Of a DNA stretch of 64,000 nucleotides, positions 15,557-56,973 are shown one piece after another. Below the pieces are notes generated by a model. That model had not been told where the DNA came from and ran no database searches. It worked only from the letters and a program-made list of their open reading frames with translations. Source of the DNA: Thiovibrio frasassiensis (GTDB taxonomy: Bacteria > Desulfobacterota > Desulfobulbia > Desulfobulbales > Desulfurivibrionaceae); assembly GCF_029607905.1 (NCBI RefSeq), contig NZ_JAPHEH010000001.1, positions 1,579,530-1,643,529 of the forward strand. Direction: 5' to 3'. Made by a program: the position numbers and the translations under genes. Numbering within the stretch: the first letter of the stretch is position 1; every line of letters starts with the position of its first letter.

Positions 15557-18500
15557 CTAAAAAAGCTGCATCTGCCGTCCGCCAGCATTGCGCCGTTTGT
15601 GTCTGGGGTGGTCAACCTCGAGCACAAGGGAGGCGGGGATTTCTTGGATAAACCGGGAGGGGCGGTGGCTGCTGGTGCGATTGAAGATGGTGCGGTTTAA
15701 AGCCCCGCTCAGGATCAGGCTTTCCTGTGCTCTGGTCATCGCCACATAGAGGAGGCGGCGTTCTTCTTCCACATCGCTGTGGCGGTTGGCAATGGTACAG
15801 GGGAGGATATCCTCTTCAAGCCCGGCCAGAAAAACCACCGGGAACTCCAAGCCCTTGGCCGCATGCATGCTCATGAGGGCAACTCCTTCGGCCCGTTCGT
15901 CGTAGATGGTGGCCTGGGCGTTTTGCCGGAGGTGATCGCAAAATGCCTGGAGATCATTGCCGAAGGCATTGGCCAGCTGGAGCAACCGCTTGACCTCCAA
16001 GTCCTGCGGATTGCCGAAACCCATGCGTGGCAAAGCCTCGCTCAGGGAGTCGGTAATCCCCTGTTGCGCCGCTTTGCGGAAATTGGTGAGGGTTCCCCCT
16101 GTCTCCCGGATGATCCTTGCTGTGTTGGCAGGAAGAGGGAGAGTGGCCGCCGCGCCGGGAAAATCATGGCAACGGAGGGGGAGTTTTTGTTCAAGGAGGG
16201 AGAGGGTCGCTTCGCCGATCCCCGGAAGGTCTGCCAGTAACTGGAGATGTTCGTTCAGGGTCGCGTCCGGTGCGCTGGCCAGCAAGAAATGGGTGGCGGC
16301 CTTCAGGCCGGGCTTCAAGAAGAATGGCGTGCCGCCCACAAGCTGGAAGGGGATGCCCTTGTGGTGCAAGGCTTCGGCAATGGGTTCTGCCATCTGGCTC
16401 AACCGGTAGAGCACGGCAAAATCGGCAAAGCTCCGGGCTTGGGCCTGATTGGCACTTCGGGCTGTATGCCGGGAAAGATTACTGGTGCCGCCCAGCCCCT
16501 CTTCGATACGGTGCGCGATAAATTCTGCCTCCGCCTGGGCAGTTGGCGCCTGATGCCATTCGATGCGAGACGGGCTGGTGCTTTCGGCCAGAAGTTGGGT
16601 GTCGCCGCTCTGCTGGTTTCGGCGGATCAGGGCTGCGGCCCCATCGATAATGGCCGGGGCGGAGCGGTAGTTGCGGATCAGGGGCAGGGTGGTGACGCCT
16701 GCCCTTTCGCGAAACCGTTGAAACAGGGTGAGGTCGCTACCGCGAAATCCGTAGATGGCTTGGTTGGGGTCGCCGATGGCGAATACCCGGGCTTGTTTTC
16801 CGAGCAAGAGGACCAGCTGGTACTGAGGGTGGTTGAGATCCTGAAATTCATCAACAAAGAGATGGGTCACCCGGCCGGTGACCTCGGCGGCAAAGTCGGG
16901 GTCGTTACGAAACCGTTCCACACAGCAGGGAATGACCAGATCAAGATCAATGGCCTTGTTCGGTATCCACGAGGGAAGATAGCGCGCCAGGAGATCCGGC
17001 AGCTCGGCATCGGCGGGGAGTATGCCCCGGTTCATCTGGTCGACATAGCCGGCCAGCTGTTTCTTGAGAATATGGTGTTCGGCCCGGGAGAAGTCGGGGA
17101 AGGATTTGCGCAGGTAAAAATCCCGCTCCTCCTCGCCGACCACCACAAGGTCGGGGGTTTCTTTGCGCAACAGAGACAGGCAATAGGCATGGAAGGTGCC
17201 GACGAAGATGGGGCGGGCACCCTCGCCGAGATCACGCTCCAGACGGGCGCGCATCTCACTGGCAGCACGGTTGGTGAAGGTGATGGCCACCATCTCTTCG
17301 GGACGGGCATGCTCCTTGGTGAGCAGATGTTCGATCCTGGCCACCAGGGTAAAGGTCTTGCCGGTGCCCGGTCCGGCAGCCACCAGGATGTTTGCGGCTC
17401 TGTTGGTGATGGCTGCCAGCTGTTCCGGATTAGGTTTTCTCGGGAGCAGGGGTGTTTCTCTCGCGGAAGAGGGCTTTTCTGTGGGGGGCAGCGGGGTGCG
17501 TTCTTTTTTCGCAGCAGGGTGCTTTGCCTTTTTCCCGGTAAACAGGTTGATCTGGCCGGCCAACTCCTCCCGCTCTCCTTTTGCAAAGACGCGGATCACC
17601 CCGAATTCGCCATCGTAACCAGGGGTGCGGATCACCTTGCCCGTACGGATGCGGGCCACCGCCTCCCCCAGCACCGGGGACATGAGATTGATTTCCTCCC
17701 CCGGGGTGTTGAGCAGCAGGTTGAACTCCGAACCAAAGCGGGCAATGACCCTGGAGTAGAGGGCCATGACCCCCTTGGTGGCAGGGCCGGCGCCGAGAAT
17801 CTCGCCCAACACCTCGGGCAACGGGATCAGGCTGTGCACCGCGGGCGAGCCCGGCGGGTAGTACGGCTCTGTCCGCTCGGCCAGCTCCATGACCCGGTGC
17901 AGCACCCCCACGGTCAGGGGTTTGCCGCAGACCGGGCAGATTGCCCCGATCTTTCGGGTTTCGACGGGCTCAAGGCAGACCTGGCAGTTCCGGTGGCCGT
18001 CGCAATGGTATTTCCCCTCTTCCGGGTAGAACTCTATCGTGGCGGCAAAACCGCCGGTAAGGGGGTTTTTCAGGGCTTCGCGCAGATCGGAAAAGCTGAA
18101 GCCGGTATTGAAGATGTTGGCCTCCCTGCCCAATTTCCCGGGAGAATGGCAATCGGAATTGGAGATCAGGGCGAAGCGGTCCAGGGCAGGGATGAGCCGG
18201 TTCATGTCCGGGTCCGAGGAAAGGCCGGTTTCGAGGGCAAAGACATGCGGGCTGAGATCGCCGTAGCATTCCTCAATGGTGTTAAAGCCGGAGCGGGAGC
18301 CGAACAGGGAGAACCACGGCGTCCAGATGTGGGCGGGAACCAGGAATCCCTCCGGCGCTTTTTCGAGCAGGATTTCCAGCAGATCGCGGGAATCAAGGCC
18401 CAGGATGGGGCGGCCGTCCGACTCGATGTTGCCGATGCCTGCCAGGACGGAGTTTATCCGTTCCGCCGAGGCGAAATCCGGCACATAGAGCAGGTTGTGG

Positions 18501-18817
18501 ACCTTGCGTACCGCGCCGTGCCGTTTGTAAATGGAGCTGATCTCGGCGGTGAGCAGGAAGCGGCTGGGCAGCGCTTCCGGTGTCGCCTGCACCAGGGCCG
18601 GGGGGATCGCCTCATTCTTGAGTTTGAAGAACCCCGGTTCGGCAGGCTCAAGCTGCTCCTTGAGCTGACTGAACCAGCCGGGATGGGTGAAGTCGCCGGT
18701 GCCGAGCAGGTGGATCCCCTTGACCCTGGCCCAGGCGGCAAGGCCCTGCAGGTTTCCGGCCTTGCTGGTCGCTCGGGAGAAGGGGGAATGGATGTGGAGG
18801 TCAGCGATATAGCGCAT
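15557..18817 (-). CDS. EndoQ-like PHP nuclease fused to UvrD/PcrA-type helicase
   Basis: A 1086-residue fusion. Residues 1-430 resemble endonuclease Q: a PHP domain starts RYIADLHIHSPFSRATSK, with GTGDFTHPGW and SNSDCHSP metal motifs, and a zinc-finger region follows (GHRNCQVCLEP ... ICPVCGKPL). EndoQ cleaves 5' of deaminated bases and abasic sites. Residues about 455-1086 form a superfamily 1A helicase: AAGPGTGKTFTL (Walker A), LFVDEFQDLNH (motif II), AIGDPNQAIYGFRG (motif III), SMHAAKGLEFPVVFLAG (motif V) and LLYVAMTRAQE (motif VI). All key residues are present in both halves. It lies alone, between the thioredoxin-like gene and the fucose genes. Confidence 0.9.
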   Translation of the reverse strand: MRYIADLHIHSPFSRATSKAGNLQGLAAWARVKGIHLLGTGDFTHPGWFSQLKEQLEPAEPGFFKLKNEAIPPALVQATPEALPSRFLLTAEISSIYKRHGAVRKVHNLLYVPDFASAERINSVLAGIGNIESDGRPILGLDSRDLLEILLEKAPEGFLVPAHIWTPWFSLFGSRSGFNTIEECYGDLSPHVFALETGLSSDPDMNRLIPALDRFALISNSDCHSPGKLGREANIFNTGFSFSDLREALKNPLTGGFAATIEFYPEEGKYHCDGHRNCQVCLEPVETRKIGAICPVCGKPLTVGVLHRVMELAERTEPYYPPGSPAVHSLIPLPEVLGEILGAGPATKGVMALYSRVIARFGSEFNLLLNTPGEEINLMSPVLGEAVARIRTGKVIRTPGYDGEFGVIRVFAKGEREELAGQINLFTGKKAKHPAAKKERTPLPPTEKPSSARETPLLPRKPNPEQLAAITNRAANILVAAGPGTGKTFTLVARIEHLLTKEHARPEEMVAITFTNRAASEMRARLERDLGEGARPIFVGTFHAYCLSLLRKETPDLVVVGEEERDFYLRKSFPDFSRAEHHILKKQLAGYVDQMNRGILPADAELPDLLARYLPSWIPNKAIDLDLVIPCCVERFRNDPDFAAEVTGRVTHLFVDEFQDLNHPQYQLVLLLGKQARVFAIGDPNQAIYGFRGSDLTLFQRFRERAGVTTLPLIRNYRSAPAIIDGAAALIRRNQQSGDTQLLAESTSPSRIEWHQAPTAQAEAEFIAHRIEEGLGGTSNLSRHTARSANQAQARSFADFAVLYRLSQMAEPIAEALHHKGIPFQLVGGTPFFLKPGLKAATHFLLASAPDATLNEHLQLLADLPGIGEATLSLLEQKLPLRCHDFPGAAATLPLPANTARIIRETGGTLTNFRKAAQQGITDSLSEALPRMGFGNPQDLEVKRLLQLANAFGNDLQAFCDHLRQNAQATIYDERAEGVALMSMHAAKGLEFPVVFLAGLEEDILPCTIANRHSDVEEERRLLYVAMTRAQESLILSGALNRTIFNRTSSHRPSRFIQEIPASLVLEVDHPRHKRRNAGGRQMQLF

Positions 18818-19187
18818 TTGTTCGTTGTCTCTTGAAAAAAGAAAAATTGAGAGAAGCAGATGAATCTTACCCAGCTTCAGGATTTCTGTCTATGGCGTAT
18901 TTCCTTATTTCTTTGAGGAAAAGGGGTGGTCTTCTTGGGGGGAAATCGTTATATTGGAAAGTTATGTTTGAAACGGTGTGGAAGCGAGGAGGTTGTGGGA
19001 ATGGTTGAACGGGTCAGTGCCCTGGTTATGGCAGGTTTGTCCCGACAGAGCTGTATGCCGTGTCCCGGACCTTGATGGCTCACCGCCGGCACTTTGCGCA
19101 AATTGAGTGTACGGATGTTGCTCTGCAGGCTTAAAACCTCACTAATTATTGGCTCAGAACGCAGCAATTTATTGCAAAAGGCTTACC
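18818..19187. other. Intergenic region upstream of gmd, no gene seen
   Basis: This 370-nt stretch separates the divergent helicase gene and gmd. Short open frames here lack ribosome sites and recognisable products. It must hold the promoters of both flanking genes, but I see no convincing -35/-10 pair and no ops-like element. Confidence 0.5.
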
Positions 19188-22892: not shown

Positions 22893-22933
22893 CATGTAGG
22901 AGCGGATTCAGCCGTGAGAATCAGCTTGAAATG

Positions 22934-23024
22934 GAGAGGTGCCAGAGTGGCCGATCGGGAGCGACTCGAAATCGCTTGACCTGGGAGACCAGGTCCGTGG
23001 GTTCGAATCCCACCCTCTCCTCCA
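22934..23024 (+). tRNA. tRNA-Ser (anticodon CGA)
   Basis: A 91-nt class II tRNA with encoded CCA. The acceptor GGAGAGG pairs with CCTCTCC and the anticodon stem AGCGA/TCGCT encloses CTCGAAA (anticodon CGA). The long variable arm is CCTGG-GAGA-CCAGG, and the T arm is GTGGG-TTCGAAT-CCCAC. The discriminator base is T (23021), not the G usual for bacterial tRNA-Ser. Confidence 0.93.
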
Positions 23025-23136: not shown

Positions 23137-23658
23137 ATGAAACAGAACGTATCGAAAGAATGGTTCGCTATCCGCACCAAACCCCAACAGGAACAGGTTG
23201 CCAAGCTGCATTATGAGCGGCAGGGGTATGTGGTCTATCTGTCCATGATGCGGACTATTGTCCGGCATGCCCGACGGACCGAGGAGAAACTCAAACCCTT
23301 TTTTTCCGGCTATCTCTTTCTGCATCTTGCCCCGGACGAACGGAATTGGGTGGCGATCTCTTCCACCCGTGGTGCGCTCGGGCCGATTTGCTTTGGCGAT
23401 AGCTATGTGTCGGTACCGGACTGGATCATTGCCGATCCGCAGGCTAAGGAAGATGCGAGTGGAGCAGTGCCGTTGGCGGACCTGCAGAAAAAAGGGTTGC
23501 TGCCGGGTACTGCGGTGGCGGTGCAGCTTGATGATGATACCTTGGCTCAGGGTCTGTTTTACTCGTTCTCCGGACAAGAAAATGTGGTGGTGCTTTTAAG
23601 TTTTCTCAACCGCCAGGTGAAGGCTACACTTCCACTGGACAGGGTGCAGCGGCAATAA
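23137..23658 (+). CDS. rfaH: RfaH/NusG-type transcription antiterminator
   Basis: A 173-residue NusG paralogue. Residues about 8-105 form the NGN domain that binds RNA polymerase (EWFAIRTKPQQEQVAKLHYE, RQGYVVYLSM, KPFFSGYLFLHL). The rest is a short KOW-like C-terminal domain. RfaH proteins are recruited at ops DNA and suppress pausing and Rho termination in long operons for surface polysaccharides. A good ops match lies 107 nt downstream of its stop, at the head of the polysaccharide locus. The start at 23137 is chosen by homology; an upstream ATG adds 16 unrelated residues. Confidence 0.88.
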   Translation: MKQNVSKEWFAIRTKPQQEQVAKLHYERQGYVVYLSMMRTIVRHARRTEEKLKPFFSGYLFLHLAPDERNWVAISSTRGALGPICFGDSYVSVPDWIIADPQAKEDASGAVPLADLQKKGLLPGTAVAVQLDDDTLAQGLFYSFSGQENVVVLLSFLNRQVKATLPLDRVQRQ

Positions 23659-23702
23659 GGCGTGAAGGTCGCTCCTTCATAATATGCCAAGCCCCTTTTT
23701 GT

Positions 23703-23732
23703 TTGACACTGGCTGAAAATGTCCTGTATCTC
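23703..23732 (+). promoter_or_regulatory. Candidate promoter of the polysaccharide operon
   Basis: A perfect -35 TTGACA (23703-23708) is followed 18 nt later by TATCTC (23727-23732) as a weak -10. It lies between the rfaH-like gene and cysC, about 33 nt upstream of the ops-like element, which is the arrangement expected for an RfaH-controlled leader. Confidence 0.45.
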
Positions 23733-23764
23733 TGAGCAACGATCGGACAAACGGTCACCTTAAG

Positions 23765-23777
23765 GGCGGTAGCATGC
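23765..23777 (+). promoter_or_regulatory. ops (operon polarity suppressor) element
   Basis: GGCGGTAGCATGC matches the enterobacterial ops core GGCGGTAGNNT at every fixed position. It is flanked so that GGGC and GCCC (23764-23779) can pair around the core on the non-template strand. It lies in the transcribed leader before cysC, and its cognate regulator is encoded immediately upstream. I see no other copy in the window. Confidence 0.8.
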
Positions 23778-23816
23778 CCGGAATACTTTGCTTGGCGAGA
23801 ACGGCAGCTACTTTTT

Positions 23817-24437
23817 ATGGATATAATGCACAACATTGGCTGGCATCATGCCACAGTTACCCGCGAACGGCGTGAGATGTTGAATGGGCATCGAGCCTGC
23901 GCTGTCTGGTTTACTGGGCTTTCTGGTTCCGGCAAGTCGACGCTTGCCCATGCCGTGGAAGAGCGACTGCATGGCATGGGGTGTCGCACCTTTGTCTTTG
24001 ACGGCGATAATGTGCGGCACGGGTTGTGTTCTGATCTGGGATTCAGCATCGAAGATCGGAGCGAGAACATCCGCCGGATTGCCGAAATGACCAGTCTTTT
24101 TCTTGATGCCGGGGTCATTGCCCTGTGTGCTTTCATCTCTCCCATGCGTGATGATCGCCAGAAGGTCCGTGCCCTTGTCGGGGTTGATAACTTTTTGGAA
24201 ATACACTGTGACTGCCCCTTGAAAATCTGTGAACAGCGGGATGTTAAAGGGTTATACAAAAAAGCCCGGGCCGGACTGATTAAGAACTATACCGGAATCT
24301 CTTCCCCATACGAAGCGCCGGAACACCCAGATCTCTGCTTGGAAACCGGGCAGGAAGCACTGCAGGATTGTGTCGGCAAGGTGTTGGATGTGTTGCGGGA
24401 GAGAGGAGTGGTTTCCGGGATTTCCCTTTGGCCTTGA
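23817..24437 (+). CDS. cysC: Adenylylsulfate (APS) kinase
   Basis: A 206-residue kinase that phosphorylates adenylylsulfate to PAPS, the universal sulfuryl donor. The P-loop GLSGSGKST lies at residues 34-42, followed by [17 protein letters not shown] and the [11 protein letters not shown] block. FISPMRDDR and [10 protein letters not shown] are also family motifs. It is the first intact gene after the ops site. The likely customer is the sulfotransferase at 30876. The start could also be the ATG three codons downstream (23826). Confidence 0.94.
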
Positions 24438-45042: not shown

Positions 45043-47364
45043 ATGGCAAAAATATTATTGTTATCTCCCCCCTATGTAGAGCTTTATGGTGATTTAAAAA
45101 AAGCTGCCGGAAGATATTTCCCTTTAGGTTTAGGTTATATCGCTTCTTATCTTATGAAATATGGTGGACACGAAGTCCAGTTATATGAGCCGGAAGCGCA
45201 GGGTTTAACCATGCATCGTATTCAAGAGGTTGTTCGGGAGTTCCAGCCAGATATAGTCGGAATAACCTGTTCAACCGCAAATTTTACACGGGCGATAGAG
45301 ATGGCACAACTGTGCAGAAACAACTCTCGTGCTAAAATTATCATCGGTGGGGTGCATGTGTCGGCTATTCCAGAGTATGTTATGTCGGAATATGCCGATT
45401 GGATAGATTGTGTGGTAGTTGGCGAAGGCGAGATAACAATGCTAGAACTTGTCGAGGCCTATCAGCGCAACTCCGACATTGGAGACATAGAAGGCATTGT
45501 GTATAATAAAAAGGATAAAATTGTTCGTAATGCGTGTCGGCCTTATATTGAAGATCTTGATAGTATCCCGTTTCCCGCGCGTCATCTTATCCCGCAGCAC
45601 CTTTTTTTCCCAAATATGCATAATGCTCGATATAGGAATTGTCTAACCATTCTCACCAGCAGGGGATGTCCCTTTAATTGTAGTTTTTGTGCAGCAAGGA
45701 TTGTTTCCGGAACACGATACAGAATGCATTCTGCTGAATATGTCCTAGAAGAAATGCAAATGTTGAAGAAAGATTATAATGCAAGGCAGTTGCTCATAAC
45801 AGATGACACTTTTACCATAAATCATCCCCGTCTTGAAAAAATATGCAAGGGTATGATTGATAAAAAACTTAATCTTAAGTGGTTTTGTTTCGCTCAGGTT
45901 ACCACCGTTAACCGAGAGATGCTGAGTTTAATGAAAAAAGCCGGCTGCTATAGTATAGGTTTCGGCTTAGAGTCTTCTGATGAGGAGATTTTGAGAAAGA
46001 TGGGCAAGCCGATTTCACCGGCTAGGTCAAAAGAAACCGTAAAGATCGCTAATCAAATCGGCCTTAAAACGCAGGCTTTCTATATTCTCGGTTCGTCAGG
46101 AGAAACAAGAACTCAAATGGCCGAGACAATAAAATTTTCACAGGAAGTTGATTCAACTCTTGCTTTTTACAACATGCTTGTCCCTTTCCCTGGGACAAAA
46201 GATTTTGATTTTTACTTTTCGTCGGTGCCCCTTAAAAGCATAAACTGGGAAAAATTTGTCGCTATTGGTGAAGATTGCGTGCTCAAGAATGCCGAGGTGT
46301 CTGGTCAAGAAATTGAAAACTTAATCAGTAAGGCAAATATTAAATATTATGCCAATCCTAGAAAAATTATAAATCTTCTTTTTCATATTCGGACATTATA
46401 TGAGTTTAAAAATTATTTAATGGGGGGAATTGCACTGTTTAGGCAACTTGCTAAATGGTCGCGTGAAAAGTCTGACACCAATGATAGTAATATTGTTGCG
46501 TATGAGAAAGAGAGTTGCAATATTTGTGGCAGCGACGACTACACAATTGTGTATCATTCTAATGTCGGTCTTACTAATCCTAGCATAGAAGATTATACTA
46601 GCACGGCAAACAAATACAGTGTGTACAATAATATTGTAAAATGTAAAAAATGTGGACTTGTATATATGAATCCACGTGATGTCGGGGTAATTGAACTATA
46701 TAAAGATGTAGTGGATAATGCTTATTTGGAAACTTGGCCGGAACGTGCCGAGACTTTTAATGATCACCTGAAGGTAATTGCTAAATATAAACCAGATGGG
46801 ATGCTTCTCGATATAGGATGTTATGCCGGAATTTTCTTAGACGAAGCTCAGAAAAGAGGATACCAGGTAGCTGGTATAGAGGCGTCCACCTGGGCTTCTA
46901 ATTACGCCCGGGAAAAAACAGGAGCGACGATTATTAACGCTAGTTGTAATGAAAAGCAGTTTTTCGCGACAGGGGAGTTTGATGTGGTAACTCTATGGGA
47001 TGTTGTCGAACATCTCGACAATCCATCGTTATGTTTCTCTAATATTTATAACTATCTAAAGCGTGAGGGTATAGTGGTTGTTACAACCCACGACATAGGC
47101 AGTGTTTTTGCAAGGATTATGGGTAAGCGGTATCCGTGGTTAATGAGGTTCCATCTCTACCACTTCACGCCGAAAACTTTATCGGCATTGCTATTAAAGA
47201 ATGGGTTTGAAGTTGTGCATACAGAGTTTTATTCAAAGAAATTTTCCCTTTCCTATCTTCTTAGCCGGGTGGGAATTAAAGCAAGAGGAGCATTGTTTAG
47301 GCGGATTGTTCTTCCTGTGAATACCGGAGATATGTTTATGTTAATTGCAAAAAAAATTATTTGA
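45043..47364 (+). CDS. B12-binding radical SAM protein fused to a methyltransferase
   Basis: A 773-residue fusion. Residues 1-150 form a cobalamin-binding-like domain (KILLLSPPYVELYGDLKK ... IIIGGVHVSA). Residues about 190-420 form a radical SAM barrel with CPFNCSFC (CxxxCxxC cluster site) and GFGLESSDEEILRKMG. Residues about 485-773 hold a zinc-ribbon-like pair (CNICGSDD and VKCKKCGLVYMNP), then a class I methyltransferase (MLLDIGCYAGIFLDEAQKRG, LWDVVEHLDNP, FTPKTLSALLLKNGF). The class B radical SAM half may methylate or rearrange unreactive carbons; the second half may methylate oxygen or nitrogen. No clear homologue of the whole fusion is known to me. Confidence 0.82.
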   Translation: MAKILLLSPPYVELYGDLKKAAGRYFPLGLGYIASYLMKYGGHEVQLYEPEAQGLTMHRIQEVVREFQPDIVGITCSTANFTRAIEMAQLCRNNSRAKIIIGGVHVSAIPEYVMSEYADWIDCVVVGEGEITMLELVEAYQRNSDIGDIEGIVYNKKDKIVRNACRPYIEDLDSIPFPARHLIPQHLFFPNMHNARYRNCLTILTSRGCPFNCSFCAARIVSGTRYRMHSAEYVLEEMQMLKKDYNARQLLITDDTFTINHPRLEKICKGMIDKKLNLKWFCFAQVTTVNREMLSLMKKAGCYSIGFGLESSDEEILRKMGKPISPARSKETVKIANQIGLKTQAFYILGSSGETRTQMAETIKFSQEVDSTLAFYNMLVPFPGTKDFDFYFSSVPLKSINWEKFVAIGEDCVLKNAEVSGQEIENLISKANIKYYANPRKIINLLFHIRTLYEFKNYLMGGIALFRQLAKWSREKSDTNDSNIVAYEKESCNICGSDDYTIVYHSNVGLTNPSIEDYTSTANKYSVYNNIVKCKKCGLVYMNPRDVGVIELYKDVVDNAYLETWPERAETFNDHLKVIAKYKPDGMLLDIGCYAGIFLDEAQKRGYQVAGIEASTWASNYAREKTGATIINASCNEKQFFATGEFDVVTLWDVVEHLDNPSLCFSNIYNYLKREGIVVVTTHDIGSVFARIMGKRYPWLMRFHLYHFTPKTLSALLLKNGFEVVHTEFYSKKFSLSYLLSRVGIKARGALFRRIVLPVNTGDMFMLIAKKII

Positions 47365-54669: not shown

Positions 54670-54829
54670 ACGTGTTCGCCCTCGACAGTTTATAAAAGGT
54701 GATTCTGCTCAAAATAGGCTGCGGTGTAAATGAGGTGTGCTTTACGATTTCTGCACGACAACATGGGTAATTCTGTCAAAATCAAGTAGAGTCACTTCTT
54801 GGTTTACGTCAAAGAACTTAGGAAGCCGT

Positions 54830-56728
54830 ATGAAATACCAATTTCGTAAATTGAATTTCTGGATTGTGCTTGGGGTTGACGTACTGCTGCTAGTTGCCGC
54901 GCATCTGTTGGCCTATGTAATTCGTTTCGACGGCGTTGTGCCCCAGGAACAGCAGGCCAATATCTCCGTTCTTGGGTTCCTGCTTCCGGTCAAGCTGGTG
55001 CTGTTTCATTTTTTTGGGTTGTATCGCGGGATGTGGCGGTATACTTCCCTTGCGGATTTGTTGAACATCCTTAAGGCCTGTGTGGTTGCCGGGTTTATTA
55101 CTTTGGGTGGCATTCTGTTGTTGAACCGTTTCGATGGGTTTTCCCGGGCTGTTTTCGTGCTTGATGCCTTGTTGACCTTCCTGTTCATTGCCGGATTTCG
55201 TATCAGTCTCAGGCTCTCTTGCCAAAAGGCTTTTTGTCTGCCTTTTCTCCAGGATGATGCCGGTAAGCGGCAGCGCCGCAAGCGGTTGCTCATTATCGGG
55301 GCCGGAGATGCCGCCGAAAAGGTGACGCGGGAAATTAACGACAATAAGGCCTTGCCCTACATAGTGGCAGGGTTTCTTGATGATCATCCTTCCAAGATCG
55401 GCCAGCAGATTCACGGCATTCCTGTTCTCGGCCCTATTGCTGACCTGTCGGAGTATGTGTTTAAAACCAAGGCCAATGAGGTGCTTATTGCTATTCCCTC
55501 GGCCAGCCGCGACCAAATGCAGAGGATTGTCGAACTCTGCCGCGCCTGTGGAATTCCGTTCAAGACCCTGCCCGGGCTGGGGGAGCTGATCAGTGACAGG
55601 GTTTCCATCAAGGCCATCCGCGATGTTTCGTATAAGGATCTTCTGGGCCGGCCACCGGTGCGCCTCGAGTTGGAAGAGATCGGTGAGGTCCTGGGAGGAA
55701 AGACGGTTCTGGTCACCGGGGCAGGTGGCTCCATCGGCTCGGAGCTCTGTCGCCAGATCGTTCGCTTCCACCCTGCCAATCTTATTCTCATGGATGCCAG
55801 CGAACAGAACCTCTACCAGATCGAGATGGAGCTGCTCCACGAATACGGCTTCAGGGACTATGTGGCCGTGCTGGGGAAGGTGCAGGATAAAGGGCTGCTG
55901 GAATCGTTGTTCCCGCATTATCGGCCAACCGTGGTGTTCCATGCCGCCGCCTATAAGCATGTGCCCATGGTGGAGCGTAATCCTTGGGAGGGCGTGTACA
56001 ATAATATCTTTGCCTCCAAGCGGTTGATGGAAGTTTCCGCGCGGTCTGGGGTGGAGCGTTTTATCGTGATCTCCACTGACAAGGCGGTGCGGCCCACCAA
56101 TGTCATGGGCGCCACCAAGCGGATGACCGAGATTCTCATGCAGGGCTTTTGTGAAAAGAGCAAAAGGGCCGGCTCGGGAACCCGCTTCATGGCGGTGCGT
56201 TTCGGTAATGTTCTTGGCTCCTCCGGTTCGGTTATCCCCTTGTTCCGGCGGCAGATTGAGCTGGGCGGCCCGGTGACGGTTACCCATCCGGATATGACCC
56301 GCTACTTCATGTCCATTGAGGAGGCGAGTCAGCTTATTCTCCAGGCCGCGACCATGGGCGAGGGCGGTGAGGTTTTCATCTTGGAGATGGGAACCCCGGT
56401 GCGGATCGGCCAGATGGCCCGTGACCTGATCCAGCTTTGCGGCAAGGAGCCGGATACGGAGATCGAGATCAAATATACCGGGCTCAGGCCCGGCGAAAAG
56501 ATGTACGAGGAGTTGATCACCGAGGGCGAGGGGATCGTGAAGACCGGTCATGAAAAGATCATGGTGTTGCGTGGAAACGGTGCTTCCCTGGAGGACTTGC
56601 AGGATTCGCTGGAAAGGCTCAAGCAGTTCGCGTCAAACCATGATGCAGAGGGGATCAAAGCCGAGCTCGGCAAGGTGATCCCCGAGTATACCTCCCAGGT
56701 GAGTGAATCCGTCTTGCCCAAAGGGTGA
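54830..56728 (+). CDS. wbpM: Membrane UDP-GlcNAc 4,6-dehydratase (WbpM/CapD type)
   Basis: A 632-residue protein with four N-terminal helices (residues about 8-125, FWIVLGVDVLLLVAAHLLAY onward) and a CoA-binding-like domain (RLLIIGAGDAAEKVTREI). The catalytic FlaA1-like SDR follows (VLVTGAGGSIGSELCRQIV, HAAAYKHVPMVERNPWEGV, STDKAVRPTNVMGATKRM). The MxxxK motif is that of the WbpM group. AGGAAG lies 5 nt before the ATG. It supplies UDP-4-keto-6-deoxy-GlcNAc for the reductase at 53166 and closes the locus. Confidence 0.93.
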   Translation: MKYQFRKLNFWIVLGVDVLLLVAAHLLAYVIRFDGVVPQEQQANISVLGFLLPVKLVLFHFFGLYRGMWRYTSLADLLNILKACVVAGFITLGGILLLNRFDGFSRAVFVLDALLTFLFIAGFRISLRLSCQKAFCLPFLQDDAGKRQRRKRLLIIGAGDAAEKVTREINDNKALPYIVAGFLDDHPSKIGQQIHGIPVLGPIADLSEYVFKTKANEVLIAIPSASRDQMQRIVELCRACGIPFKTLPGLGELISDRVSIKAIRDVSYKDLLGRPPVRLELEEIGEVLGGKTVLVTGAGGSIGSELCRQIVRFHPANLILMDASEQNLYQIEMELLHEYGFRDYVAVLGKVQDKGLLESLFPHYRPTVVFHAAAYKHVPMVERNPWEGVYNNIFASKRLMEVSARSGVERFIVISTDKAVRPTNVMGATKRMTEILMQGFCEKSKRAGSGTRFMAVRFGNVLGSSGSVIPLFRRQIELGGPVTVTHPDMTRYFMSIEEASQLILQAATMGEGGEVFILEMGTPVRIGQMARDLIQLCGKEPDTEIEIKYTGLRPGEKMYEELITEGEGIVKTGHEKIMVLRGNGASLEDLQDSLERLKQFASNHDAEGIKAELGKVIPEYTSQVSESVLPKG

Positions 56729-56885: not shown

Positions 56886-56973
56886 GGAGAGGTGACCGAG
56901 TGGCTTAAGGTGCACGCCTGGAACGCGTGTGTGCGGCAACGTACCGTGGGTTCGAATCCCACCTTCTCCGCCA
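56886..56973 (+). tRNA. tRNA-Ser (anticodon GGA)
   Basis: An 88-nt class II tRNA with encoded CCA. The acceptor GGAGAGG pairs with CTTCTCC (one G-U). The anticodon stem CACGC/GCGTG encloses CTGGAAC (anticodon GGA). The T arm GTGGG-TTCGAAT-CCCAC is identical to that of tRNA-Ser(CGA) at 22934. The discriminator is G. Confidence 0.95.

Follow-up and report, generated by a model that had tools for sequence, protein, structure and literature searches.

The window, a 64,000-nucleotide stretch of the Thiovibrio frasassiensis genome, contains on its plus strand a gene for a NusG paralogue of 173 aa (23137 to 23658), which was characterized by profile searches, sequence matches in the PDB, residue comparison, structure matching and a tree. 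The product carries a PF02357 NusG domain (profile search, E = 5.8e-16), and its PDB sequence matches are to RfaH exclusively. A methionine aligns to 23137 in all eight of the closest congeners, indicating that this start is right. Against TIGR01955, the NCBIfam equivalog for RfaH, the protein scores 75.1 bits (E = 6e-21) and does not reach the curated cut-off of 144.5; therefore, judged by its sequence, it is RfaH-like and is not filed here as an RfaH equivalog. The genome encodes two PF02357 proteins, this product and one housekeeping NusG, and also encodes Rho. In the tree, the housekeeping NusG is separated with a support of 100, and placement among the RfaH-type proteins and the deeper RfaH branches is poorly resolved. 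As an NGN and KOW protein distinct from the housekeeping NusG, the product belongs with the RfaH-type NusG paralogues, in keeping with the first-pass annotation of this DNA, which had called it an RfaH-type antiterminator. An identity as ordinary NusG is ruled out by the tree, the PDB matches and the residue pattern, and an identity as the UpxY antiterminator (NF033644) is rejected on a score of 39.2 bits versus a cut-off of 100 bits. A plasmid search for this rfaH lineage returned distant homologues, of at most ~32% identity among the matches listed, and gave no sign of plasmid carriage. At two loci elsewhere (L013 in genome G042 and L011 in G039), rfaH-like genes each contain one in-frame stop, a decay that is apparently recent.

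An ops core, GGCGGTAGCATGC, starts 106 bp past the rfaH stop (23765 to 23777, plus strand) and agrees with the ops element, GGCGGTAGNNT, at all fixed bases; sequence identity among congeners collapses right after it. A pattern search of the whole 2.84-Mb genome returned a single copy of the word GGCGGTAGCNTG, at this ops. A bare ops word is expected by chance 0.28 times per 64 kb, or about twice per genome, and alone it could be a chance occurrence, but the conserved linkage to rfaH rules this out. Comparison of leaders extends the element by a flank, CACCTTAAG (23756 to 23764, plus strand), which in relatives reads CACCCRAAT. Between the gene and ops lies a promoter-like sequence (23703 to 23732, plus strand), recognized in the sequence and in an alignment of eight congeners, in which a putative -35 TTGACA (23703 to 23708) is followed after 18 nt by a weak -10, TATCTC, where congeners have TATACC. 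From it, the operon transcript is predicted to start at ~23739. The TTGACA and the fit to the ops core had already been read here; the ops is a true one, and its place behind rfaH proves conserved. The accompanying suggestion that the regulator is made independently of the operon finds some backing in this promoter, which is kept in most congeners, but not in G012, where it is lost.

Downstream, 28 codirectional open reading frames fill positions 23817 to 56728 at a GC content of 0.44, versus 0.58 upstream, which bears out the earlier description of a long, AT-rich glycan operon. The first cargo gene is cysC, for an adenylyl-sulfate (APS) kinase identified by profile search (23817 to 24437, plus strand); it is common only to congener G003, at 84%, and its presence suggests that the glycan is sulfated. 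The cysC ATG has no clear Shine-Dalgarno sequence, an arrangement that would suit RfaH-dependent ribosome loading. Profile searches of the remaining glycan cargo (24759 to 54669, plus strand) identified two flippases, glycosyltransferases of families GT2, GT4, GT10 and GT11, several FkbM methyltransferases, epimerases including a UDP-GlcNAc 2-epimerase, CapD-like enzymes and an initiating sugar transferase; going by this gene content, the cargo encodes a Wzx-type surface polysaccharide. The codirectional packing points to a single transcript for the whole operon, and four gaps of 0.3 to 0.7 kb could hold internal promoters.

The leader ...TTCACCCGAATGGCGGTAGCATGC is present after the same gene in relatives. 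Across the order, CACCNNVAKGGCGGTAG was found in 30 of 258 genomes, and an rfaH-like gene, with presence defined as E below 1e-40, in 20. CACC-N5-GGCGGTAG occurs in 17 of these 20 gene-bearing genomes, almost always just downstream of the gene (Fisher p < 1e-15 for co-occurrence of gene and leader), so that the motif, whose conservation the first-pass annotation had left to be checked, is indeed kept in relatives. Many matches to CACC-N5-GGCGGTAG in genomes that lack rfaH are chance words, in which the T-CACCCRAAT context is missing. Other families of the phylum also have the leader CACCCRAAT plus ops, and GGCGGTAGC is identical in 26 leaders. Of 395 phylum genomes, 7 contain the exact 18-mer CACCCRAATGGCGGTAGC and none contains its reversed control. 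Among the 7 are members of two families (f47 and f62) in which the rfaH-like gene again lies upstream of the leader, and of families whose second NusG paralogue sits elsewhere (G502 and G608). Orphan leaders with intact CACCCGAAT and ops were observed at position 8585 of L071 (G024) and position 2939 of L072 (G026), in genomes whose NusG is the housekeeping copy alone. At the window locus an RfaH-type gene, ops and a long glycan operon do occur together outside enterobacteria, as had been proposed. In a limited literature search we found no paper on RfaH/ops control in Desulfobacterota, the single text containing both words being a microbiome study.

Direct contacts of E. coli RfaH with ops are made by K10, H20, R23 and R73 (PMC5995543). 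When the contact residues were compared, a check suggested by the first-pass annotation, all four were found in the window protein, and Q24, T72 and G74 are kept too. In homologues from outside the genus, the contact positions are variable (Q or N for H20, I or Y for R73) despite an intact ops. The autoinhibitory pair E48-R138 is lost in the window protein, which has K and N at these positions. Two AlphaFold2 runs, with 20 and 38 sequences, gave a beta-barrel C-terminal domain (CTD; pLDDT 85 and 80), in both cases from shallow alignments and with no metamorphic RfaH control fold alongside, since viral contigs yield one E. coli-like rfaH gene, too few for a comparable control alignment. The best Foldseek match of the model, over its full length, is 8phk, the ops-bound active RfaH on an ops-paused polymerase, and autoinhibited RfaH structures match it over the N-terminal domain alone. 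The protein therefore departs from RfaH with its E48-R138 autoinhibition, by its residues, and with its alpha-hairpin CTD, by prediction. Given the absent salt bridge and the CTD modelled as a barrel, it is probably not fold-switching or only weakly autoinhibited, and this RfaH lineage appears to separate ops reading from autoinhibition. A classical metamorphic RfaH, autoinhibited as in E. coli and merely situated beside its target, would require the barrel to be an effect of the shallow alignments. This we regard as rather unlikely: in its favour, I93 and F130 are conserved and other interdomain contacts could replace E48-R138, but K, R or S occupies the E48 position in every Desulfobacterota-type relative checked, and the barrel came from both runs.

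Upstream of ops, the leader RNA is predicted to fold into a hairpin (23741 to 23756, plus strand), supported by folding, arm-swap and shuffle tests. The window has a shifted version of 5 bp; most relatives' hairpins end 3 nt before ops. The arms differ by family (CGG.UGAAC/GUUCA.CCG, UGG.UGAUCA/UGAUCA.CCA, CGGGUG/CACCCG, UGGGU.AAAAC/GUUUU.ACCCA and AGGGUGA/UCACCCU), and complementarity is kept across families while the sequence changes. MAFFT failed to align these variable arms, and covariation was tested by arm swaps and shuffles instead. The native fold was better than with shuffled upstream arms (p = 3e-8, combined over 16 representatives), native arms paired better than arms exchanged between families (p = 5e-5), and the closing pair varied among C-G, U-A and A-U (p = 0.0009), all three p values being optimistic for related sequences. 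The Rfam covariance model for JUMPstart (RF01707) had no match in the window at E up to 10 or in 19 relatives at E up to 1. The E. coli JUMPstart, which we checked against E. coli genomes, likewise folds a hairpin abutting ops, and a stem-loop has been reported there (PMC2864571). RNA polymerase pauses at ops U11 (PMC11001881); with polymerase at this position, the base of the hairpin is 14 nt from the RNA end, that is, at the exit channel, and the hairpin may hold the pause or block backtracking. The inverted repeat could instead serve as a DNA operator bound by a repressor or activator, with ops a secondary pause site, as might be suspected from the repeat of the genus, a near-perfect palindrome beside the promoter (TGAACA-N2-TGTTCA in several members). 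However, across families the sequence varies and the pairing and the distance to ops are kept, native arms are preferred over swapped ones, and the stems include G-U pairs and a recurring 1x1 loop, all of which make an operator improbable.

In this genus, the gene order around the locus is tadA, tRNA-Ser(CGA), a variable region, capD, tRNA-Ser(GGA) and dnaX. In the window, ARAGORN places the left edge of this hot spot at tRNA-Ser(CGA) (22933 to 23024), syntenic with tadA in congeners, and the right edge at tRNA-Ser(GGA) (56886 to 56973), followed by dnaX. Before the latter lies the conserved right-hand gene for a CapD-like nucleotide-sugar dehydratase (54737 to 56728), which is also present at the empty site; all three features are on the plus strand. 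The variable region measures ~34 kb in the window, 40 kb in G010, ~65 kb in G015 and 22 kb in G014, and two genomes (G009 and G011) have an empty site of 3.4 kb. In G005 and G013 (L126-L130) the hot spot holds long clusters of 33 to 46 kb without rfaH or ops, and the system is therefore not indispensable. Among congeners, the mean identity of rfaH is 0.834 versus 0.829 for tadA (Spearman 0.63). Within a few bases past ops, congener identity drops from ~0.7 to 0.24, and over 3 kb it is 0.52, equal to the alignment background; the cargo proteins are mostly unrelated or only moderately alike (25-60% in most pairs), and some pairs have a few closer genes in common. Because rfaH diverges like tadA and the cargo differs, the head has been inherited in place and the cargo exchanged: in this genus, glycan cargo is swapped behind a head that serves as a fixed socket. 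The earlier idea that control could travel with the locus is thus not what is seen in the genus, although the head has moved or doubled in some cases, lying elsewhere in the genome in G009, where the home site is empty, and occurring in G241 (L074 and L075) as two rfaH-plus-leader heads that are 93% identical with different genes behind each. That rfaH and ops are leftovers inherited at a glycan hot spot, with the operon now driven by other promoters, would account for the weakened -10 and shifted hairpin of the window, the occupied sites without rfaH and the orphan leaders in G024 and G026, but it is very unlikely given that the rfaH frame is unbroken in each of the eight main-group congeners and that the ops contacts and core are (nearly) invariant though nearby DNA has diverged.

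We consider it likely that the locus carries a dedicated, cis-encoded RfaH/ops processivity system, recruited through ops and probably not autoinhibited. Transcription would start ~25 nt upstream of ops, and the nascent RNA hairpin would stand just outside polymerase as it pauses there. The non-template ops bases G5 and T6 would be recognised by the K10/H20/R23/R73 pocket, and the RfaH-like protein would remain on polymerase, shut out NusG and hence Rho, and couple ribosomes, with transcription continuing through ~33 kb of AT-rich glycan genes. The protein would owe its specificity to ops, to the leader and to synthesis beside a single target. The first-pass interpretation is partly supported by these results; it had not noted the hairpin in the leader RNA, the absence of the autoinhibitory pair or the tRNA-bounded hot spot. 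How RfaH-like proteins are recruited outside enterobacteria has been stated as unknown, and according to a published model the ops contacts and autoinhibition emerged jointly (PMC7593976). The locus is a natural case of ops reading seemingly uncoupled from autoinhibition, and we tentatively raise the possibility that a constitutively open, cis-dedicated Desulfobacterota RfaH, with specificity residing in ops and a hairpin in the loading signal, represents an alternative or earlier state than that model describes. A control system of the E. coli type, in altered form, likely exists far outside enterobacteria, and the leader set offers a phylum-wide comparison for the ops code, with a conserved hairpin open to compensatory mutation. 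The locus also exemplifies a fixed transcription socket with surface-glycan operons exchanged behind it.

Similar to RfaH, ops and JUMPstart of E. coli (PMC5995543, PMC11001881), the window system has the ops core, K10/H20/R23/R73, long glycan targets and an RNA stem-loop immediately before ops. However, the window protein is ~25% identical to E. coli RfaH, lacks the E48-R138 pair and is encoded beside its single target, whereas E. coli RfaH serves several in trans, and the leader sequence differs, being missed by the Rfam model. Monomorphic cis-located RfaH homologues beside long operons have been reported without key ops-binding residues (PMC13015549). The window protein resembles them in its absent autoinhibitory pair, its beta CTD, taken from the AlphaFold2 models, and its adjoining long polysaccharide operon, and may be counted among them by this fold and linkage, but it keeps all direct contacts, and ops itself is retained. 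UpxY of Bacteroides and TaA of Myxococcus are likewise NusG paralogues tied to the operon that they serve, be it for a surface glycan or an antibiotic; how they are recruited is described as unknown (PMC7593976), and their genes lie inside their own operons, unlike the window rfaH, which also falls below the cut-off of the UpxY profile. As for minor features of the window, a 773-aa protein with B12-binding, radical SAM and methyltransferase domains is encoded within the glycan operon (45043 to 47364), and two very long overlapping reading frames occupy opposite strands at 15557 to 18835 (1086 aa on the minus strand, 862 aa on the plus strand). A further comparison is offered by LoaP of Bacillus, a NusG paralogue acting with a leader RNA hairpin. 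To our knowledge no ops DNA element is known for LoaP, and the two systems are alike in combining a NusG paralogue with a leader RNA hairpin. Antitermination by LoaP has been described (PMC12691694).
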